Shown here: positions 3,440 through 50,795 of the stretch, in pieces
Numbering within the stretch: the first letter of the stretch is position 1
Layout: each line of letters opens with the position of its first letter
Program-made: the position numbers and the translations under genes
Assembly: GCA_013368315.1 (NCBI GenBank)
Contig: JAACJM010000103.1
Span: forward strand, 232,375-296,374
Length of the DNA: 64,000 bases
DNA from: Tetrapyrgos nigripes
Taxonomy: Eukaryota > Basidiomycota > Agaricomycetes > Agaricales > Campanellaceae
Direction: 5' to 3'
The notes under the pieces: generated by a model
The model's database searches: none
Told to the model about the DNA's origin: nothing
What the model saw: the letters and a program-made list of their open reading frames with translations, nothing else

Positions 3440-4567
3440 CAAGGGGGAGGCGGACCGCATATCCGGTACATAGGGTAGGGAGAGGGGGAGTCAGGTCTGG
3501 CCAAAAGTTTTTCTGACTGCACCTAAAATAAGGTATTTTGAGCTTGTTTTTTGGTAATTAGCTATAGTTGTGCAATTTCAAGACTTTCCTACCTTTTTTT
3601 GACTATCTATTCTGCAAGAAGGTGCAACTACACAACAAATACTTGTCACAAGTAGAGTTGAGATGAGCCTGGACATCTTATCTCTTCTCTTTTTGGCAAT
3701 ATCAAGTTAGGGCTTATAGTATTTTATCTATGAGTCATGTGACTGTAGATATACTATATAAGGCAGGCAGAAGGGGAGGGAGTACTCCGCACAGCGGGGC
3801 GCGGAGCATATTTGCCAGCCATTTTTGTGCACTCTTAAATGACGGATAGTTCACACAATTTTGGGTGAGATAAAATTAACTGTATTAGCTGCCAAAAAAG
3901 GGGTCGCAAAAGCTCAAATTATGTGCTCAAATTTTTCCATGCTAAACTTTTTATTCATTCATGACCAAAAAAGGGAAGCAAATAGTATTCAAATTCTGAT
4001 TTGTGAGAAAATGCGAAAAAGGTATGATCACTATTTGTGTGCCGGATTCCGGCGAGTAAAAGGAAAAGCACTGCGGATGGGAAAAATCTAAACTTAAATG
4101 ACGGATTTTTGCTCGGCACCGGACCTACTCCATATAGCACCGATTTGAGGCCAATATTCCATATGGAGTATGCCCGGCTGTTGAGAAAAATCGGTAATTT
4201 AAGTTCGTGTTTTTCAATGCCCCAGTGAATTCATTTTACTCGCCGGAATCCGACACACAAATATTGATCATACCTTTTGCGCATTTTCTTACAAATCAAA
4301 ACTCGAATACTATTTACTTCCCTTTTTTGGTCACGAATGAATAAAAAGTTTAGCACGGAAAAGCTTAAGCGCATAATTTGAGCTTTTGCGACCCGGTTTT
4401 TTAGCAGTAAATACGACGGATTTTATCTCACCCAAAATCATGTGAACTATCCGTCATTTAAGAATGCACAAAAATGGCTGACAAATATGCTCCGCGCCCC
4501 GGTGTGCCGGGTGGTGCTAAAAATTTTTTCGACCCCATGCAAATTTTTGAAACCCGCCTCCCCCTTG
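3440..4567. mobile_element. fold-back DNA transposon, CAAGG-terminated
   Basis: The ends are perfect 14-bp inverted repeats (CAAGGGGGAGGCGG at 3440-3453, its complement at 4554-4567). The flanking 8-mers atcgctgt (3432-3439) and gtcgccgt (4568-4575) match at 6 of 8 positions, consistent with an old 8-bp target duplication. Internally, about 3786-4115 is the near-perfect reverse complement of about 4150-4515, so most of the element folds into one long hairpin with a short tip near 4120-4145. It has no transposase. The termini and target length match the elements at 39841 and 49798, so this is probably a non-autonomous relative. Confidence 0.75.
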
Positions 4568-9469: not shown

Positions 9470-11636
9470 TGGTCGACGATACCCTCTCTAAGGACCGTCT
9501 TTCTGCCTACACCCTTGCCGCCTCAACACCCGATCCTCTCATATACACCAACCTCTACCCTTTTGTCCATGAACGTCTTACCCATCCCAAAGCCAATCCT
9601 ACCCATACCGAAATCTATGAACGCATTGTCACTCCCTACAACGCCGATGCCTTTGAACAAGACCTCTCCACTTATGGTCTTACCAACACCTTTCCCCATC
9701 TGGTACGAAACCTCCGTCAGGGTTTTGCCATTGGACGTTTACCAACACTAAAAACAACTGTCATCATGCCCAACCACAACTCTTGCAATGTAGGGGAAGG
9801 ACCACAGGTGGTTGAGGAGTACATTGATGGTGAAGTTGCAGCAGGTCGTTTCTCGGGCCCTTTTTCCATGTCCACTATGAAGATGATCATGAAGGGTCAC
9901 TTCGTCGCCTCTCCTCTGATTGTCGCCGAGTCGGAACAAGGCCTAGGACTGCCGATGAAGTATCGAGTTTGCCGGAACTTGTCCAAGGAGGTCAAGGGTC
10001 AACCTTCTATCAACTCGTACATCAGTAAGGGGGATTTCCCTACTAGATTCGATACCCCAGTCACAGTCGCAGATTTGGTGAGTTCTGTTTCCTCTTCTAC
10101 CTTCTACGATGCGACGGCATCCTGTTCTGCGGTGTACCACACCATTCTACTTCTACAACGTGACGGCGTTTTGTTCTATGGTGTTTAACACCTTTCTACT
10201 TATACTACGCGACGGCGTCTTGTTCTACGGTGTTTAACACCTTTCTACTTCTACAACACGACGGTGTCTTGTTCTACGGTGTTCAGCACCATTCTACTTC
10301 TACAACGCAACGGCGTTTTGTTCTACGGTGTTTATGACGTGACAATGTCTTGTTCTACAGTGTACAACACTATCCTACTTCTACTTCTACCTTCTACCTC
10401 TACATCTATGGGACACCCGCTTATACTTGTTCGCAGATTGCGTCTGCCCCAGAAGGTACCCAAGCGTGTGCCTTGGACATCAAGAAATTCCATCGTACCT
10501 GCCCAGCTCTTTCCCACCATAAACCTTTCCTTGTCGTCCATGTCAACGGCAAGTTCTACGTTGACCACTGTGTTCCATTTGGCTGTGCATCTGCTAGCAG
10601 TATTGCAGGCATGATTGCCAACGCTACCCTCGCGATCTGGGCTGCGAAGGGTGTCAGTCCAATCAAACGTTGTGAAGACGACTTCAAAATTCTACGTACA
10701 CCTGTCGGTGTTTCTCCCCCAACCTACTCTTATGACAAGGAACACATGCTGGAGTTAATAGAGCATCTCGGGATCCCTTGGCATTCTGCAGAGGACAAAG
10801 GCGATGCAGAATTTGTCTTCACCACCACCTTCATCGGCCTGCAGTGGGATCTACCTCAGCGGCTGGTCTGGCTACCAGAGACAAAACGTTTGAAGTACGT
10901 TTTTCGCCTTGATCGTTTCCTCTTCGCATACAAAGGCCAACTCTGCGATCTCAAGCCAATTGAGAAGGTACATGGTATTCTCTGCCATTGTGCCTTCGTT
11001 TACGTCCAAGGACGCTCTCGTCTACCATCCCTCTCCAACTTTGCTACCCTTTTTAAGGGAAGCTACCACCGACGTCTTAGTACCCCTACTCGTGTGGTTA
11101 AAGACATTGAGTGGTGGCTCGAAGTGCTCTCGACTCCTTGCTCACCTCGTACACTGCTGCCGAGAACTGAAGCGAAGGACCTATACCTTTACGTTGATGC
11201 TAGTACATCTTGGGGCATTGGAGTTGTCATTGGGAAACAGTGGGCTGCCTTTCGGCTACACCCCAACTGGAAGGAGATGTGTCCAGGCAGGGACATATGC
11301 TACCTGGAGACGATAGCAGTAGAGCTCCTCCTCTACTTCATTGAAGGTTTTGGCTACCAGAACGTCAACCTCCTGGTGCACTCCGATAACCAAGGAACTA
11401 TTGGTGCTGTCAAGAAAGGTCGTAGCCCTAACGCCTGGATCAACCACTCTATCCGTTGGATCTACGACATCATTCTTCCCCTACATATGTCTATTACCCT
11501 GCAATACGTTGCATCTGCCGAAAACCCTGCTGACCCTATCTCGCGCGGAGAATTGGGTGACCTACCTCTTTCCAAGAAGCTCCTTCTCTCGTTTGTTATA
11601 CCCGAGGAGTTGAGACCATTCCTTACTTATGTTTAA
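9470..11636 (+). CDS. Ngaro-like element ORF2, reverse transcriptase / RNase H
   Basis: Two exons (about 9470-10077 and 10437-11636) join in phase across a 359-nt GTGAGT...CGCAG intron, giving TVADL-IASAPEGTQ. The start at 9470 is a plausible ATG; the frame is open further upstream, so translation could also begin by frameshift or reinitiation. RT motifs: ALDIKKFHRTCP (catalytic Asp of motif A), FGCASASSIAGM (motif B) and CEDDF where YVDD-type motif C is expected (Tyr replaced by Cys, both Asp kept). RNase H follows: YLYVDASTSWGIG (Asp), LETIAVELLL (Glu) and VHSDNQGTIGAVKKG (Asp), ending in a VASAENPADPISRG motif typical of DIRS-group elements. Its product would copy element RNA into DNA. Confidence 0.85.
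10078..10436 (+). repeat. minisatellite inside the RT intron
   Basis: The RT intron is filled by about six copies of a roughly 49-bp unit built around ttctacggtgtttaacacc and ttctacttctacaacacgac (copies start near 10124, 10173, 10222, 10271, 10320 and 10352; the last two are shortened or altered). The donor GTGAGT (10078) and acceptor CGCAG (10432-10436) keep the coding frame, so the array is tolerated only if it is spliced out. Confidence 0.75.
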
Positions 11637-20199: not shown

Positions 20200-20560
20200 T
20201 CCCCTTACCAAGTATGCCCTGCTTTGTAATTTCATGCGATTAGGCATTCATAGACTAAGACTGTCAGATGGTACAGTGAGACGAAGTCTTATTACGCGTT
20301 TTCCTCTTCTAAGGTCTTCTATTCCAGGTTCTGCTCAACGATTCGATTAACTTGGTCCCTGTTATTAAGTCATGGATGCAATCGAGAGGACTTGATTGAC
20401 CGCAGCGACAAGCGACTGCTCAAAGCATGGACGGTACGACTGCGCTTGCAAGCTCGAGAATGGCTTCGGGATGCGCAGCAGGAAAACATCTGCGTATCTA
20501 TCCTTTTCCAACTTTCTTCCTTTCGTAGTTAGGTTCATCGATGTCGACATACCTTAGTCT
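20200..20560. repeat. repeated tail segment, copy 1
   Basis: The segment beginning ttaccaagtatgccctgctt recurs at 41366, at 45203 and, in its second half, at 46742. It marks the junctions between duplicated units and gives the empty site for the PHD-bearing element at 39841-41357. No gene was recognised. Confidence 0.65.
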
Positions 20561-32430: not shown

Positions 32431-34066
32431 CAGTGGCCAAAAAAATTGTCCACATGTTTGGCACTTTTGGAAAGATTGCTGATTTAAGAGCTATTGAGCA
32501 GAAATCTCAAAACATGGCTGGTGGTAGCAAGAAAGCCTTTGATTAGAGCTACAATAATCTGTCTGTTTTGTCTTATTTGGCCACATATCTGCGGAGTTAT
32601 GATTGATTTAAAATTGTATGTCATTTGGACAATTTTTTGAGTTGCCACTTCAAAATCATTATTGCAATAACCTGATGTGTTATACATGATGTCATGGGTG
32701 GAGCTGTACAGTAATGTGATGTATACACCACAATGATGTCATAGCTGCCAGCTGGAGCATACATAGCAACATACAGATGCTCTACAGCCTCTATGAAAAT
32801 CATGGGGTCCCTCATATCAGCCCAGAAAGACAATCTCTACTCTCTCCTCCAAACTGCCCCTCCCTCTATCAAATTTTCAGCTCAGACTGAAGTATGAAAG
32901 CAGAGTGTTGCTTTTATAGGTATAGAGACATGTTCTGATAAAGGAAACCATTGGATATAGCACTTTAGAAAGTTAATACCCAGCTGAAAAATGGCCACCT
33001 CTGGATCAACTCCCATATTATTAATGCTTTCCAGGATTTTGTTACTTAAGATGGTCATATAGTGTTTGCAATCTATCTTCCCCTTCATCTGGACCATTTT
33101 TACTGCTTACTGTTGCCCCATACCCTACCCCATCATGTCATTTTCTCTCTCAAATGTCATCATTTCTGTCACATCTTGCTGTACCATGAATTTATCTCTC
33201 TTTTCTCACACATGCTGGGGCATATTTGCCCCAAAATAATTGGTTTTGGTCTTATCTGAGAAAATAACCCACTTCTAGCCTTCTACAGCCCGGTCTTTTT
33301 ACATCTGTGCAAACTTCAAGTGAGCCTTGCTGCAAGTCACTGTAAGTTTGCACTTGTTCTGTGTTTCGGAGATCGCCACAAGACGTTTTCAGGAATGTTT
33401 TGGCTGTTATAGGTTGGGACAGGTTGTCCAAGAAGAGCCTTGATGTTTCAGGCCACTTGTGTAGCCATCTGGCTTTACCAGAATGGATTTTTTTCCAATC
33501 TAACCTCTTCACAAGTAGTAGAGAGCCTCCTAGGACACCCTGCTGTATTGTTCTCATTGTCTGTATTTGTCTTTTAAGCCACAAAAGCAACTCTTGGCTT
33601 CCATACTCCAGTCTGAGCTGCAATTTTTGCAGATGGAGAGGCAGTTAAGAGGAGAGAGTAGAGATTGTCTTTCTGGGCTGATATGAGGGACCCATGATTT
33701 TCATAGAGGCTGTAGAGCATCTGTATGTTGCTATGTATGCTCCAGCTGGCAGCTATGACATCATTGTAGTGTATACATTACATTACTGTACAGCTCCACC
33801 CATGACATCATGTATAACACATCAGGTTATTGCAATAATGATTTTGAAGTGGCAACTCAAAAAATTGTCCAAATAACATACAGTTTTAAATCAATCATAA
33901 CTCCACAGATATTTGGCCAAATAAGACAAAACAGACAGATTATTGTAGCTCTAATCAAAGGCTTTCTTGCTACCACCAGCCATGTTTTGAGATTTCTGCT
34001 CAATAGCTCTTAAATCAGCAATCTTTCCAAAAGTGCCAAACATGTGGACAATTTTTTTGGCCACTG
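32431..34066 (-). mobile_element. Tc1/mariner element with about 0.42-kb terminal inverted repeats
   Basis: The ends are cagtggccaaaaaaattgtc (left) and its complement (right), flanked by TA at 32429-32430 and 34067-34068. The inverted repeats are exceptionally long: 32431-32852 pairs with 33646-34066 with few differences. The 0.8-kb centre encodes a decayed transposase on the minus strand. The element splits the hAT transposase N terminus, so it inserted after hAT. Confidence 0.9.
32882..33625 (-). pseudogene. Tc1-like transposase remnant
   Basis: Reading the minus strand with frame changes gives, in order, a helix-turn-helix-like region (KRLDWKKIHSGKARWLHKWP), AHLKFAQM and KDRAVEG, then KWVIFSDKTKTNYFGA around the first catalytic Asp (usually SDETK, here Lys for Glu). 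KGKIDCKHYMTILSNKILES and NNMGVDPEVAIFQ follow, the segment before the second Asp. Several in-frame stops (KDRAVEG-stop-KWV) and lost blocks, including the DPKH and final Asp regions, show it is dead. Confidence 0.8.
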
Positions 34067-35095
34067 TAAATCTGGTATTGGACCTGCACTGGTAACAGAG
34101 GCAGTAGGGGTGGGAGCAATGGAAAATGTAGGACACGAACTATTTTCTTTTTCACTCGGACAGGACCTAACATTGTGCCTAGTCTGGTCCTCTGAGTCAT
34201 TGTTTGTCCGTTTGCGAGATGTCCGAGTATTCTGAGTAATTGAATGAGCAAGTGGAGAAGGTGTTTGCAGTGATGTATGGGGAAGGGGAGAGCCGTTACT
34301 AGTATTAGGAGTGGGGGTATATGGTGTGTGAGGGAATGGACTCCACCCAGAAATCTGAGAGCCGTTCACATAGTATGCGTAGGGAAGCCTCTGAGCAGAA
34401 GACTGAGGAGTAGTGGGGACAGCAGCCTGGAATGCAGAAGGTTCTGAATGCGGTCCATCAGTGCTTATGTTTGAGTTTGATGTTGATGGGTGTGTAGGAT
34501 GAGGATACAGAGGATACGGCATATAGCCATAAGGGTTGTAATAGTCACTCATCGAAGCAGGAACAAAAAAAGCTTAAAAAGTTTGAGCTTTTAAATTACA
34601 AGACTCGTTGCTAACGTTTGAGATCCACATGGAACTCATAGCCGAATTCGAAATTTAAAGTTATGATAAGCTTTTTAGGTAGTTACAAACAGGGTAGAAG
34701 AGGAAGGAGAGCGACGAGGAGGAGAGGACGCATTGTCGCCCCTATCCCAGCTTGAGAACAAGCATGCCATAACTATGAGGTCATATCCCAGTGCCGCTGT
34801 GATCCGAGTGATGGGACCTTCCATATATGGGTCCGAGTTGAGCTCGAGCGGAACTCACGGCGTGAGTTGACTCAGCTCAGCGCAATATATAAGTATGGAC
34901 ATATATGTCGTCATATCATATGATATATGCATGACCAGAGATCTTAGATCGATCAATAGAAAAGGCGCGCCGCCGGCATTTGGGGTTGCGCACAAGAGGG
35001 CCCGCCATTCCCTCCCCTCCCCTCCCTCACAGGCTCGGGGGGTCCCCCGAACCGGGGAGTCTCAGGCGGGCACACTAAAGCCTCGTTGTGCGCGA

Positions 35096-35305
35096 GTTAG
35101 ATGTTCTCAACCCTAACCTTTAACCAGTGCAGCTGCGCTGCAGGGCCTCCGGCCCCCCTAACTCTAACCCCGCCTCTTTGAGGTTTTGGCGGCTTTGCCG
35201 CGGGCCTACGGCCCAGAAACCCGAACCCTAACCAAACCCTAACCAAAACCCTAACCAAACGAACCCTAACACTAAGGCGAGGCTAGCGCCTCGCCTCGAG
35301 GTGTA
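35096..35305. repeat. telomere-like repeats and short GC hairpins within Q
   Basis: Interrupted ccctaa repeats occur at about 35112-35130, 35157-35170 and 35221-35272 (aaccctaaccaaaccctaac and further copies). Between them are compact palindromes: ggcctccggcc, gggcctacggccc, gcggctttgccgc, and ggcgaggctagcgcctcgcc at 35276-35295. Confidence 0.7.
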
Positions 35306-35316
35306 ATAAAAAAGTA

Positions 35317-35385
35317 CAAGTACAGGATCGAACCCACATTCTTTGCTCCAGCTTGACACGCTTAGCCAGTAGGCTACCAACACTT
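35317..35385 (-). ncRNA. tRNA-derived sequence (pseudo-tRNA or SINE head)
   Basis: On the minus strand this 69-nt sequence has a good acceptor-like pairing (aagtgtt with tgtactt), a D-arm-like hairpin tagcc-tact-ggcta that includes an A-box-like motif, and a 7-nt loop gtgtcaa closed by agc/gct, placing GTC at the anticodon position. It has a perfect B-box (ggttcgatcc), and a T run lies just downstream (35316-35308). The T-stem does not pair properly and the variable region is odd. I read it as tRNA-derived rather than a working tRNA-Asp. Confidence 0.5.
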
Positions 35386-35542
35386 ACTTTGTGTAGTAAA
35401 TGACAGGCATATAACGGTATATTGTGCGTTTTGGGAGAAGATCGGGTCTGATCGGTTCTTTTGGCTCCAGACCGGTCACGCAGATATCACGGTATATGAC
35501 GACATATGTGTCCGGACTTATATATCGCTCAGCGCAACACTA

Positions 35543-36811
35543 CTATTCGTAACCTAGAAGCGATAGGAAAAATGTCAATGAATCAAAACTTTCGCAAATC
35601 TGTACTGTTGTCCGAGAAAATTTACACAACTCGAGTCTATGATATAAACCTTCAGTTTATCAAACTTAGAGGGTTTTCCGAAGGATGTGGATACAAGCCG
35701 TGGAGGGCCGATGAGGGACGTTTTGTGACGGCGTATTGGCGGGGAAGTGATATATGTCACAGGTGTGACACATCGCCGCGTCAAAGATTTGCCGATGTGC
35801 TGAGCCTCTCATCTCCTAAACTGAGGTCGCAAATGCATGAAAAGACTGATACAACGACTCTTATTGCATTCTACTGTAGTTACTTACTGTCATTTCTAAT
35901 GTACATCAATTGCGTGTAAGGTACCATAAACAGGTTGACATGGAAACAAATGAAAGCTTAACGACGAAAACATGAGTGACTGCGACGAAAACATTGAGAG
36001 CGGAAGCGAGAAAGCAAAGTACTGGAAAGCAACTTCAAAGTAAAGAAAGGACGGTGGCAAAATGAAATGGAAATCATGATGGTCCATGAAACTGTTGTTG
36101 CGAGAAATGATACATAAGCTGCCCCTGCGGCCATGAAGGTGGAATCTGAGCTTGCAGAGGAATTGGCTGATGATGAAAGGAATATTGGGGACACGGTGAT
36201 GGAGGAGGATGTGCTGGAAGAGCTCCAGTGTTTGGAAGTTGCTGGACAAGGGGCAGATAAATAAAGTAAAGAGAATGAATTAAAGAGAATAAAGAGAGGA
36301 CCGTGTGGCTGAGCTGGGCCCTGCCCACCTCAGTGAAGGGTGAAGGTGCAGCAGGTTGACGGCGGCGAAGAAAAGAAGCGACACTGAAGCTTCTGACGCG
36401 TCGAGCGGAGTTTGAAATGCTTCATGCCGAGAAATTTGAGATTTCGACTCGTTCGCTGAGTAGGTACTCAAAACTCTTTAGATTTGACCATAAAAAGTAG
36501 TCATAAAGATACAAATGCCCACCATAATGTACTAGAACAAGCCTTGAATATTTTCCTCAGAGGAATACTGCGTTCTAAATTTTTTCACTTCTGTCACGCT
36601 CGCGGAAATGCAGTTTTTCCGTCATTTTCAGCCCATGGCAAACGTCTCGGTGAAGATCTGGTAAATCTGGTTACATATACATGCAGATAATGTATCAAGA
36701 TATCTACTGTATAAGTTCTATGAAGGGAGATGGGGGAGGAACGAAGATATGAACAGATTTCTTCAGAATCTATCACTTCTAGGGTCCATATCACTTCTAG
36801 GTCACGAATAG
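35543..36811. mobile_element. element R: 1.27-kb TA-flanked TIR element
   Basis: The inverted repeats are ctattcgtaacctagaagcg at the left and the complement of tatcacttctaggtcacgaa at the right, 23 bp long with 2 differences. They are flanked by TA (35541-35542 and 36812-36813). The TA is the last dinucleotide of the hAT right end, and removing R joins the hAT terminus directly to the hAT target duplication. The open frames inside (35575-35919 on +, 36328-36074 on -) show no recognised domain. A second copy of tatcacttcta lies at about 36768. Confidence 0.78.
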
Positions 36812-36821
36812 TAGTAACAAA

Positions 36822-36937
36822 TGACTTCATGCGGAGATCTCCGTTTCAAAATTTAAATCCCCCTTGCCAGGACCGGCTGACCGATCGGTGGGACACGTCC
36901 CTCTCCTCCCTCCGGTCGGATCGGATCGGAGTCGGGG
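36822..36937. repeat. displaced tail of 2-kb repeat copy Y
   Basis: This matches 26366-26470 of copy X, from gagatctccgtttcaaaatt through the gatcggtgggac segment. It proves that everything between 28957 and 36821 is inserted sequence. Confidence 0.8.
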
Positions 36938-37623
36938 ATTTACCCAGCTTTTGCCTTTGTGTCTTGCCTGAACCCCTCTGAAAATAAGGGCAGAATCGAT
37001 TGCAATGTGGATAGGACACTGGAATATAGAGCATCGGTACCGTACTTTTACGACGTGATATTCCTGGTTTTCCCTACAAAGTTTTTGCTCGCAATTATCG
37101 TTATGACAGCTTTTTTGTATGTCCGTCTCTGCGTAGAATTACGTGGACCTTGCAACTGCGTACCTTTCCGCAGAGGAGATGCCTGAAAGGAATATTGGGC
37201 GAAACAACGGTGCGTTTCTCTAAAATACATACTTCTATGGGGAGCGACCTCACCGCACCGACATCACCGGAAGATGATCTTATTAATAAGCTAGCCTGCT
37301 AGCTTGAGTCTGCCTAGGAAGCCAAGCACGAAGAGTCTGTAAATCTTCGACAAATGTTCAGCTTCGTCTTAGGTACCAATCGTCGCACTAGCGGCTGATG
37401 GCGGAATTCCGTAAATGGCTCGCTGTACAATTTCAAGAACAGGTGAGTCATTGAACATATGCCTTGAGTGTTCAACTGAAGTATGTATATCAGCTGCAGC
37501 TTAAGAGAGCCGATATTGACCGGACGTTTAGTCATCTAGTAGGTGTGGCTTGAAGCTCGTCACCCTCAGGCGTCGTATTTAAGGAGGCAGTCAAATGTCA
37601 ACCATTGCCATCAAGTCTCATTC

Positions 37624-38438
37624 ATGTTCAAGTTCAGCAGCCTTTTGCTCACTGCTCTTCTCCTGGTTCCCACTTGGGCCTCAAGTGTGGCTCGTGGAGA
37701 TTATCCGCAGAGATGTGCAGACCTCCTGCCAGATCTCAGTGCTTTGCCGTGAGTCTCTCTCTCTCCACGATCTGATTGGCATTCTGGTCATAAATTCTGA
37801 TATATTTTGCATATAGAAATAAGACGAGCAGCGGAAAATTCATGATTATCGTGAATGTACAGGCAGTTGAAGGCGGGGTATGTCAACTGGCAGGGTCTTG
37901 TCTTTGTCTTTGGCGCTTACTGTGTTTCTCAGGAAGCGAGATTGGAAGAACTCGTCGAAAACATTCAAGCATTCGTAGCCACAGGTGCTGAGCCTGATAC
38001 TGTACGTTTCTCAGTCTCATCGTAAGTTTGGATGTATATTGATTAACCTCACAGCTTACTTATCGCCCAGTTCGTGTAGTGGACAGCAATGGTAACCCTA
38101 CCGGCGCATATGTCAACATTGTAAGTCTTGAATCTTGTAGTACGAATATTGGCCACCAAACGGACTCATGTATTATGTCGTTGTCTCATAGGAAGAGTAC
38201 ACAGGTATGCTACCCAGATTGGTCTGGCAGTGATGGGATGCTAATATTTCCTTCACTTTGTGTTCTAGCTAAGAGTGCTCTAGTATCTCATTTTCAGAGC
38301 GCAGCAGGCTGTCATTTTTTGCGAGAATCGCCTGCTTTGATCGCTTCACAAACCATTACATTAGTAGACGGTAAGTTCTTCTATCAAGCTAGCGCGAATG
38401 GCTCATGGTCTCATTAACTTCTGACCACAGAGTACTGA
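37624..38438 (+). CDS. small secreted protein, copy 2 (147 aa)
   Basis: Paralogue of 18413-19255 with the same seven exons and the same lengths (125, 61, 69, 66, 13, 102 and 8 nt). Exons lie at 37624-37748, 37817-37877, 37933-38001, 38055-38120, 38192-38204, 38269-38370 and 38431-38438. The signal-peptide-like start is MFKFSSLLLTALLLVPTWAS. The mature protein carries RCADLLPDLSALP, SSGKFMIIVNVQAVEGG, FVATGAEPDTLTYRPVRVVD and ends in VDEY. Cysteine positions are kept. The changes include conservative ones (for example DNNG to DSNG), and the frame is open throughout, suggesting both copies are or were recently functional. The family is not recognised with confidence. Confidence 0.75.
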
Positions 38439-38661
38439 GCTCTACTGTCAATATTCTTAATGCCTATGACTCGAATGGTAGCGTACTTCGTTTCCAGCTG
38501 TATATCTCGTTCTAGACATACTATAAATGTTGAATCCAAAAACCGTGACATTGGAAAGTGGACGATTTTCTAAAGTTAAAAGGCAAAAGAGAGGTACGTA
38601 TACAAGGTATGTATATAGTGCACAAGCTATCGATTTCTATCTTGTAAGTATACAAATACTT

Positions 38662-39469
38662 TTAAAGCTTCTCGTACTTCTCCAATGATTGCAAGAACTT
38701 TCCCCATCTACCATTATTCCAACTGGCAACGTCCTTCCATTCTGTGCTGTCTGAACCCAAGACAACCTTGGTCCACATCAAATACGCTCCCAACGCAAAG
38801 TCGGCAAAAGTCACGGTCTTACCACAAATAAACATATCTTCCTTTTCAAACCATTTCTCCATCTTCGCAAAGCCCTTTTCGACCTTTTGCCATTCAACCA
38901 CTTTCTTCTCTCCGCTCGGATACACCTCTTCCATGGGAATGGGCATTTTAGCCCTCAAGACTTTCTCACTGGGTGGATTCATGAGCCACGTCGTCGCAGG
39001 CATCAAGAATTGGAACATCGGCGCCAAGAAAGGCCAGGTCAAGACGTCGCTCCAAGGTGCCTGGAGCGTCCGAGTCTCGGGAGGGAAGAGCATGGGTCGA
39101 TCGGGATAGGTATCGTCGAGATATCGAGCTATGAGAACAGAATCGCTGATACCGCGCTTAGTAGTTGGATCATAGACTGCGGGGAGAGTATAGCACGGCC
39201 CAGGAGAGCCATCGGGGTAGGTATCAGTCGGCTGAATACTGAGCTTCTCCATCTCGCCTTTGATATCGGGGTATTCGACCCAGACTACCTTGTATGGAAT
39301 ACGTTTGTAGTTTAGAGCGTAGCTACGAGCCTCAATACCGTAAGTATCCGCTGTGGAGGGGATCAGAACTTGAAGTATGTACTTACCGGATTTTCCAGGT
39401 ATTGGGAGACCACGGCAACCCATTTTTGGCTGGGATGTCGTAGAAGGTGATAGTGCTATCATCGGACAT
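38662..39469 (-). CDS. glutathione S-transferase, Ure2p-like / fungal GST
   Basis: Two exons (39469-39387 and 39322-38662) joined across a 64-nt intron give 247 aa. The N-terminal thioredoxin-like half reads STITFYDIPAKNGLPWSPNT, WKIRYALNYKRIPYKVVWVE, then TLPAVYDPTT and ISDSVLIARYLDDTYPDRP. The SDS-type motif binds the gamma-glutamyl part of glutathione in this family. The helical C-terminal half contains KGFAKMEKWFEKEDMFICGK and VTFADFALGAYLMW. Conjugation of glutathione to electrophiles is the family role; the substrate is unknown. Unit 1 keeps only relics of this gene. It lies convergently downstream of the secreted-protein gene. Confidence 0.88.
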
Positions 39470-39479
39470 GTTAGCAAAG

Positions 39480-39832
39480 GGAAGTCTGACGATGAAATCG
39501 ATATCTGCTACGTTTATATACTCGTTTCCCATGTCATTTATCAGTAATATCCATCAGATTATTTTATGGTTACCGAGGATAGGGGCAATGGTGACAGATC
39601 CGACGGTGTTTTGAAATTAGCCGGAAAGCCGGCATATGCTTTTTTGCCTTCTAAACCTCCTCCTACTTTTCCAAGGCTTTCAAGGAGCGCAAGAATGAAT
39701 ACTTACTGGGTTTTCCTGTTACTGGGAGATTATGCATCACCCTGTTCCAGAATGCTGCAGGAGATAACTTCCATATCTCAACGGGAAGGGCCTCAGTGAA
39801 GCAAGGAAAGAGGGCCTCGTTCTTTCCTTGCT
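39480..39832 (-). pseudogene. second GST exon-1 relic and intergenic sequence
   Basis: At about 39690-39780 the complement carries a GST exon-1-like segment (SPSNRKTQ next to a gtaagt donor) with no second exon. The same relic is present in unit 1 at 20080-20150, so it predates the segmental duplication. Nothing else was recognised. Confidence 0.45.
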
Positions 39833-39943
39833 AGTAGGGACAAGGGGGGGGGGGGGGGGCCGTGATGCCGTGACATCGGGTTGGTCGGTTGGTCGGTCGG
39901 TCGAGGGCCGAGGTCTTAAAAAATTTTTGATATGAAATTTTTT

Positions 39944-40167
39944 TGAAGGGTCTAGAAGGGTTCTCAAAGTGTTTGCAACCTAATGTCGGTGTTCCTGACG
40001 CTAGAGACTTTGTCCCTACATCATACCTGTTCTGGCCCACTCGGAAATCCATCTCATGTCCTAATATAGATAGCTTAAGCCCCGACAGAAAGAAGCACGT
40101 ACACAAACGTCTAAGAAGAGAACTCGCCTTGTCATATCTGAAGGACACAGTTCAAGACTGGCCCTAA
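39944..40167 (+). CDS. possible upstream exon of the transposon gene
   Basis: An open stretch encodes PTSYLFWPTRKSISCPNIDS and KKHVHKRLRRELALSYLKDT and ends in a stop just before gtatgt. It has no ATG in a good position. It might be a 5' exon of the PHD gene that has been damaged, or part of an ancestral transposase. No domain was recognised. Confidence 0.3.
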
Positions 40168-40231
40168 CGTATGTAACAGTAATTTTGATAGACGGTTTTG
40201 AAGGAAAACTCACTTGATCTTGACTCCGAAC

Positions 40232-40996
40232 AGGCGACAAATGTGTACGAGGTATCTGAGCGAGAGAATCAAGAACCTATCATCAGCGAACCTGCGACGA
40301 GCGAGATTGAAGCCACCTTACCATCAGTTTCTAGAGTCCGTGCGTCTGGTAGTTGAAGGTTCCGAGTCCGACTCGGAGCAGGAAGATGAAGACCATCTAA
40401 ACTTATGGACTGATGGTCGAGTCCCATCTCAAGGTAGGTGTCAGTGCTGATGTTGAACTGATCTGGACGATACTAACTTACCAAACAGAATTACCGGTAA
40501 TGGCAGATCTCAGCCTTGTTGTGAATGATACAGACATGAGGCATACAGTTACTCCTGCTATAGAAGGTGAGTAATGTCAATTGGTATAAGGACATCATAA
40601 CCGAACACATTTTTAGATTTCCAGAGTGCAAATGTTGATCCCGCCAATGAAGAGAAAGGGATAGCAGAAGAAGAGCCATCTCTAGAGAAAGAATCGTCAA
40701 GACGAACAACAAGAAAACGTACTACAACACAAAAAGCAACTGAACAGGTCTCTTATGGTACCTGTATCTGCGAAGACACCATTCTTGATCCCAACGACCC
40801 CTTCATCATTAAATGTCGCGCTAACGGGTGTGAAACAGGATATGTAAGTTCTCGTGAAATTGACAAGGCTATTGACAGCTTACCAGTGTCATTTAGTACC
40901 ATCTGAGCTGTGCGGGTCTATCCAGACAGAGCTCTGACTGGATTTGTGAAGCTTGCAAAGCTCAGCATCCTCATAAAAGGAGTAAATGTTGGTAGA
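40232..40996 (+). CDS. PHD-finger protein encoded inside the transposon
   Basis: Four exons splice in frame (introns about 40433-40488, 40567-40617 and 40843-40895, all GT-AG). The N-terminal part is basic (MCTRYLSERIKNLSSANLRR) and then acidic (EGSESDSEQEDEDH). A Lys/Arg-rich stretch (SSRRTTRKRTTTQKATEQ) is followed by a C-terminal PHD finger: CIC, CRANGC, YYHLSC and WICEAC supply a complete C4HC3 zinc-ligand set with the expected Trp before the last pair. PHD fingers commonly read histone H3 tails. The start Met at 40232 is uncertain because an exon may lie upstream. Targeting of the element to chromatin is speculation. Confidence 0.65.
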
Positions 40997-41365
40997 ATAC
41001 TGTCTTGATACCATTGTCAGTAGCCGGTAAGTAGAGCTTAGCAGGGCTGGACAATTGATCCAATCGTGGTGTTTGCAGTACCATTGACTTTCAATTTTTG
41101 ACATTCGTAGTCTATATATGCAAAAGAAAGAGTATTTATAATGTTTTAGGGGGTTGGGAGCGACCGCGAAAGGCTTAGGGACTGATGTACTGGCAGCGTG
41201 GAGCTGAGACGATGACGCGGCTGGCTCATTACACGTGGAAACTTGCCTTATATGGTTTATTATGTAACTGGTCGCTCGGTCGGTCTCTCAGTCGAGACCT
41301 TGAAAAAATTTTCGACCCGATATCTTTTATTCAAGATTTGCCCCCCCCCCCCCCTTGAGTAGGGA

Positions 41366-49797: not shown

Positions 49798-50795
49798 CAA
49801 GGGGGACCGAAAATTTTGATTTCGTACACTACGTCGAAAAATTTTTTAACGGCCTCTGGGACCCGACCGACCGACCGATACCTACTAAATAGGGAAGGTA
49901 TGCCTATATATGGAAGGTGCAACGTGATACTGACCTTCCATTTTTGGCTTACCCTTGGCTCGGCGCTGTGCGCCTCGCAGGGAAGCCCTAATCCTAACGC
50001 GCTGGGGTGGCCACACGGGTATCTAGACATTGGTACTCGGGTGGCGGGTGTCGGGCCAACTAGTGAGAAGCAGGGGTTTGGGGGGTCGTGGGGGGTCGCG
50101 GGTAGGGGTCTCAAGGGTACGGGTATGGATTTCAAAACCCGTGCTGACCCTTACCCGTAAGGCAGACCCGCCGTACCCGCCATCCAAAATTTTGTACCCG
50201 TAGTTTACCTCAATATATTCACTACTTTGAGTACGTTCTATGTAATTCTTTAGTACATAGTTCAATAATAGTATTTTGCCACCACGACATCCAAATATGG
50301 GTAAGTGACACGTCGCTGTTCACACGCCGGAAAGCCTTGATCACTGTGGCTGAATGCTTGAACAAAGCAAAACTGATGTATCCCACCTTCAAAAAATAAT
50401 ATTCCATAGCGAGTAGTTGGATTTAGATACATAGTTACATTATATATATATACTTGTGAACTGACAGGTTACCCGCCAGGGGTACAAACCCGTACCCTTC
50501 TGACGGGTAAGGGTTTTCGCGGGTAGGGGTACCGGTACGCCCAAAAATACCCGGGGGATATCCCTGCAGTTCACTAGGGCCAACTCATTGGATGTATGCC
50601 AAATGGCTCAATCACCTTCCAAGACAGCTCTGGATGACAAGAACTAAGTCAAGAACTATAAAAGGACCCATAATTACACTGATACAAGCCTGTAAACCAT
50701 AAAAAATTTCACACTTCCAAAAATTTTTAACGACCTCAATGACCCGACCGACCGACCCCCAGAGTGTACCGGTCCGCAATCCCAGGTCCCCCTTG
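49798..50795. mobile_element. CAAGG-terminated non-autonomous DNA element
   Basis: The 11-bp inverted repeats (CAAGGGGGACC and complement) are flanked by a perfect 8-bp target duplication atccatcc (49790-49797 and 50796-50803). Subterminal cgaccgaccgacc and aaaaattttt motifs near both ends are shared with the PHD-bearing element at 39841. No transposase is encoded. A smaller hAT-type MITE is nested at 50061-50576. Confidence 0.9.
50061..50576. mobile_element. 516-bp hAT-type MITE nested in the CAAGG element
   Basis: A perfect 8-bp duplication gggccaac lies at 50053-50060 and 50577-50584. The termini are TAGTGAGAAGCAGGGG and the complement of ccctgcagttcacta, paired with mismatches. Repeated gggtacgggta / acccgtaccc motifs crowd both ends. 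It is non-coding. Confidence 0.85.

Follow-up and report, generated by a model that had tools for sequence, protein, structure and literature searches.

Chromatin-related domains accompany several transposases and transposase-derived proteins, either on the transposase itself or on a partner. In RAG1–RAG2 and RAG-like systems, the PHD finger is located on a second, kelch-bearing protein, and RAG2-like PHDs are described as binding methylated lysine 4 of histone H3 (H3K4) (PMC7204232). In Ginger1, extra domains are found at the C-terminus of the transposase, with Ulp1 and PHD reported for Ginger1-9_HM (PMC2836005). The piggyBac-derived PiggyMac/Tpb2 has a C-terminal cysteine-rich finger reported to bind histone H3 (PMC8086355), and Agaricomycete DNA transposons with a chromatin-related function (TET/JBP) have been described (PMC12730594). 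This analysis concerns a 64-kb window of the Tetrapyrgos nigripes genome (C100:232375-296374, in a 98.5-Mb assembly of 587 contigs; positions below are those of the window) and, within it, a 1,517-bp element whose coding remnant ends in a PHD finger. The element is very probably an internally deleted, non-autonomous derivative of an Agaricomycete cut-and-paste family, in which the PHD forms the tail of the transposase and likely serves as a histone H3 reader or tether.

In the mushroom family, unlike in the RAG systems, the PHD is on the transposase itself. Ginger1 differs by its Gypsy-integrase-type core and 4-bp duplications; PiggyMac/Tpb2 has a piggyBac core, is domesticated and carries a C1-like finger rather than a PHD, and its histone binding has a predicted counterpart in the mushroom family. 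The TET/JBP elements carry a dioxygenase instead of a reader domain and belong to other transposase superfamilies. P element and THAP9 transposases are approximately 750 amino acids long, whereas that of the mushroom family has about 1,600; it has a C2HC-spaced zinc finger where those have THAP, additional C-terminal cysteine-rich motifs and a PHD, and its elements have CAAGGG ends.

Transposase matches are dispersed over the T. nigripes genome (54 rows on 33 contigs). On C101, C4 and C253, a PHD lies on the same strand, approximately 2-3 kb downstream of the transposase core; C1 has the same order, but a weak PHD match (E 0.17). The C101 copy was modelled as nine exons encoding 1,620 amino acids. 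The PHD exons of the window element, their intron position and the adjoining HSxRxAL stretch are the same as at the 3' ends of the full-length transposases in the genome, and the peptide that precedes the last introns in C101, IISSAHSTRNAL, has a window counterpart at 40128-40166, LVISEGHSSRLAL. Identity between C253 and the window element is 75% over 49 nt of 5' subterminal sequence, 66% over 91 nt at the 3' end and 74% over 137 nt of PHD exons; in C147, the PHD and the cysteine-rich C-terminal region remain, together with sequence from the 5' subterminal part. From these matches, the window element is read as a deletion remnant in which the transposase tail is kept. The arrangement extends to other Agaricomycetes: of 99 homologs, 15 combine transposase and PHD in one protein. 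When the C101 and C4 copies are compared, the proportion of non-synonymous differences (pN) in the PHD is 0.225, with synonymous differences (pS) saturated; this constraint is like that on the rest of the transposase.

A first-pass annotation of the window had named, as support for its proposals, a longer relative that combines a transposase with the same PHD gene. The degenerate C253 element, which also shares the ends, is such a relative, as are, with more diverged ends, C101 and C4. The suggestion of an accessory targeting protein from a larger autonomous family comes close, but the PHD forms the C-terminus of the transposase and is not a separate protein. The window element is composed as follows.

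39833 to 39840, no strand: left target-site duplication AGTAGGGA; the flank is identical in C309
39841 to 41357, + strand: non-autonomous element, whole, 1,517 bp, ends CAAGGG...CCCTTG
39841 to 39859, + strand: 5' terminal inverted repeat, CAA then 16 G
39882 to 39905, + strand: subterminal repeats of GGTCGGT type on the 5' side, with a mirrored counterpart at about 41270-41285, close to the 3' end (alignment of both ends)
40128 to 40166, + strand: transposase C-terminal coding remnant, peptide LVISEGHSSRLAL, the counterpart of IISSAHSTRNAL in the C101 full-length protein
40234 to 40433, + strand: acidic-linker exon; the NCBI model starts at its ATG 40241
40489 to 40566, + strand: linker exon
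40617 to 40843, + strand: first PHD exon, carrying the N-terminal half of the finger (CxC ... CxxxxCET)
40897 to 40995, + strand: last exon, carrying the C-terminal half of the finger (YHLSC ... CEAC), stop 40993-40995
41341 to 41357, - strand: 3' terminal inverted repeat, 14 C then TTG
41358 to 41365, no strand: right target-site duplication AGTAGGGA

The borders and the perfect 8-bp duplication proposed earlier stand: the flanks match exactly over 8 bp, with AGTAGGGA outside both ends. C309, which probably represents the other allele, carries this insertion between identical flanks, at 97% identity. The claim of an empty site is borne out only in part. The element is absent near 20202, but this segment is a diverged paralog that lacks 18 nt including the target octamer; it therefore falls short of an exact empty site and does not by itself fix the borders. 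Seven CAAGGGG/CCCCTTG pairs 150-12,000 bp apart occur in the window, and an exact 8-bp repeat lies outside two of them, 39841-41357 and 49798-50795. The flanks of the pairs at 3440-4567, which encloses long inverted repeats, and at 36247-36866 are without matching 8 bp. The window also contains tandem arrays at 292-715 (units of about 56 bp) and 10101-10345 (units of about 49 bp).

When spliced, the four exons join in one frame from ATG 40241 into a product of 198 amino acids, with all cysteine pairs and the histidine of a C4HC3 PHD at its end. The PHD gene, described as clear in the first-pass annotation, is in this sense complete, but Pfam places the finger below its curated cut-off (E 0.0096 for a 110-amino-acid piece, 0.0024 for the finger alone), and the NCBI gene model P0100 (D9758_011526; 186 amino acids) runs into the PHD intron and loses the second half of the finger. 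Compared with the copy on C3, both the window and C309 copies have lost 2 bp at about 40341, in the linker upstream of the PHD, so that the start at 40241 is, by inspection, in a different frame from the one kept open in the C3 copy. The remnant at 40128-40166 has no in-frame ATG, and a stop lies upstream at 40071-40073. The window copy, singled out in the first-pass annotation as a candidate for an undescribed transposon function, looks like a decaying relic instead.

The family PHD is ING-type by sequence. The profile was built from 12 family fingers, all of which have the C4HC3 zinc ligands, although nine had been picked by that pattern (those of the window, C101 and C4 had not). Closeness to ING was judged within PDB sequences only; of these, the profile matched 22 at E <= 0.01, and 20 of them, yeast Pho23, Yng1 and Yng2 among them, belong to the ING family (best E 3e-8). 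ING fingers read trimethylated H3K4 (H3K4me3). An ING-type PHD was likely captured by an ancestor of the transposon family, and the PHD of the full transposase most likely binds the histone H3 tail, with H3K4me3 as the probable ligand by analogy with ING fingers.

The transposase family is large. Scoring of 7,994 candidates gave 99 homologs at E <= 0.001, from Agaricomycetes wherever a name is given; they are annotated as hypothetical or PHD-type proteins, and no transposase name or Pfam domain appears in the homolog listing. A strict C4HC3 motif is present near the C-terminus of 12, and the core pattern in three more. The transposase has the P-type RNase H catalytic core by which the P element superfamily is recognised, and 8-bp duplications as in that superfamily flank the window element, C101, C4, the outer and inner elements on C3 and several short elements. 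Pfam detected no THAP domain in the C101 open reading frames (ORFs) or in five homologs; a C2HC-spaced zinc finger takes its place, and for this reason the family is P-like, not a classical P element. No description of it was found in titles and abstract openings, a search that lay outside Repbase and most subscription papers, so it may be on record elsewhere.

Other copies with such termini, looked for as support for the element, are found elsewhere in the genome; their ends are of the same kind, but each site has its own 8-bp duplication. Searching the genome at the DNA level gave 30 matches, and the window PHD protein 50 match rows (E <= 1). Scanning the fetched loci for 8-bp flanks with at most one mismatch yielded 15 element sequences, namely two full-length (C101 and C4) and 13 short ones; the flanks of two rows differ by one base, and C100 and C309 are two rows for one site. 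A PHD match is present in 10 of the short elements and absent from three, a ratio biased by the fact that most loci were fetched by PHD matches. One relative (C3:759800-769000; duplication CCGCACCT) is 91% identical over query positions 6-695 and is interrupted by a nested element with imperfect inverted repeats and long transposase-like ORFs. The latter was rejected as direct parent of the window element; it is a separate insertion with its own duplication, GGCAGCGT. Two 6.7-kb loci on C170 and C451 (ends CAAGAGGGGG/CCCCCTTG, duplication GTGTTTAA) were likewise rejected as autonomous copies; by eye, their ORFs look like those of a Gypsy-type retrotransposon inside such an element.

Several short families are present. 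Very similar 1.6-kb elements at different sites on C62, C304, C107 and C59 encode an N-terminal zinc finger and a PHD, with the catalytic core gone; the C59 copy has no matching duplication at its flanks, and NCBI annotates one copy as the 232-amino-acid protein P0101. The second window element, 49798-50795 (ends CAAGGGGGACC/GGTCCCCCTTG, exact duplication ATCCATCC), gave no PHD or transposase match. It belongs to a PHD-less 998-bp family with 25 full-length genome rows at 89-100% identity and represents the recent amplification of a short, non-coding element. One copy of this 998-bp element hosts a nested 675-bp element (C28:662451-663125, positions 52-726 of locus L059; duplication CGCGGGTA), one of eight copies with 99-100% identity and a frame-shifted PHD relic. 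Since the 998-bp family spread without a PHD and the 675-bp family with a frame-shifted relic, short derivatives do not need the PHD to spread; the PHD exons of the window element are therefore best read as passengers, which would have no remaining activity.

Complete elements encode a single large transposase. Its N-terminus carries a C2HC-spaced zinc finger, followed by an RNase H core resembling that of P elements; cysteine-rich motifs, an acidic linker and an ING-type PHD make up the C-terminal part. Most likely, this protein binds the CAAGGG ends and subterminal repeats, and its P-like core cuts and joins the DNA. Before insertion, the PHD may dock the transposase–DNA complex on histone H3 at active promoters or open chromatin. 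The window element has kept the ends on which the transposase acts and, judged by position, the last exons with the PHD, whereas nearly all the rest of the transposase gene is deleted; it would be moved, if at all, in trans. It lies between two divergent genes that both point away from it, with the start codon of a GST gene at a distance of about 370 bp and that of an RTA1-like gene at about 770 bp. This position is compatible with promoter targeting, although a single site is no test. That an Agaricomycete P-like lineage uses its own ING-type H3K4me3 reader to steer insertions to active promoters, with the window insertion as one product, can be put forward only tentatively.

A number of observations weigh against this picture. 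Histone binding and targeting by the PHD are putative. The residue aligned with the ING tryptophan, before (Y/F/W)H, is aromatic throughout but is W in only 10 of 12 family fingers, the window and C101 copies having Tyr. Nor is the PHD universal: the nested C3 transposase has no PHD motif, and 84 of the 99 homologs show none; many of these are partial or truncated models, but loss of the PHD is possible. PDB sequence searches detected no similarity to P element or THAP9 transposases; the transposase profile retrieved no P element, and a single-homolog query gave no useful match. The score of the Pfam model for P-type RNase H does not reach the cut-off. All full-length copies examined carry lesions, so that none is a demonstrably active source: C101 has one in-frame stop in the linker before the PHD, C4 a stop inside the transposase match, and the C253 element (32953-40523) is degenerate, with no duplication seen.

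Among the alternatives, capture of PHD exons from a host chromatin gene by the short element itself, as raised in the first-pass annotation, is hardly credible. The ING-like sequence makes it plausible that the domain once came from a host, but capture by the window copy is already contradicted by the conserved introns and HSxRxAL stretch that tie its exons to the 3' ends of full-length transposases, and by the single protein found in the homologs noted above. Assignment of the family to another superfamily with 8-bp duplications, hAT or Kyakuja-Dileera-Zisupton (KDZ), is improbable. Duplications of this length are made by hAT elements. They are also reported for Zisupton, and Agaricomycete KDZ elements are described as carrying other chromatin genes, TET/JBP (PMC12730594); KDZ Pfam models matched none of five homologs at E <= 0.1, in a Pfam search rather than a profile–profile comparison.

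A somewhat less unlikely alternative is that short proteins of deleted elements, the PHD-only product of the window or the zinc finger plus PHD of the C62 family, regulate or repress the family in trans. A regulatory role is described for KP, a protein of P elements with internal deletions (PMC7776569), and by analogy such a role is possible for the C62 family, whose four copies keep both domains without the core and include the annotated P0101. The PHDs of the window and C62 differ with pN 0.32 and pS 0.89, and exons 2-5 of C100 and C309 show, by eye, two silent changes only. However, the window copy is 2 bp short in the linker and offers no start codon in the frame of the transposase, the zinc-finger exon of C107 lacks 16 bp at its end, the C62 PHD has CC for CxC, and the 675-bp and 998-bp families spread without an intact PHD. 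Searches with the window and C62-type proteins returned only T. nigripes records at E <= 0.01 (68 and 261 candidates, a limited search).

Reading the element as a deletion derivative of a P-like family has several consequences. Calling the family P-like brings into mushrooms a fold that has been known chiefly from animals. The predicted PHD-type genes P0100 and P0101 are explained as transposon remains rather than host regulators. If the proposed function is true, a single chain would unite roles that are split between RAG1 and RAG2, and a built-in histone reader would make the target choice of a DNA transposon directly testable.
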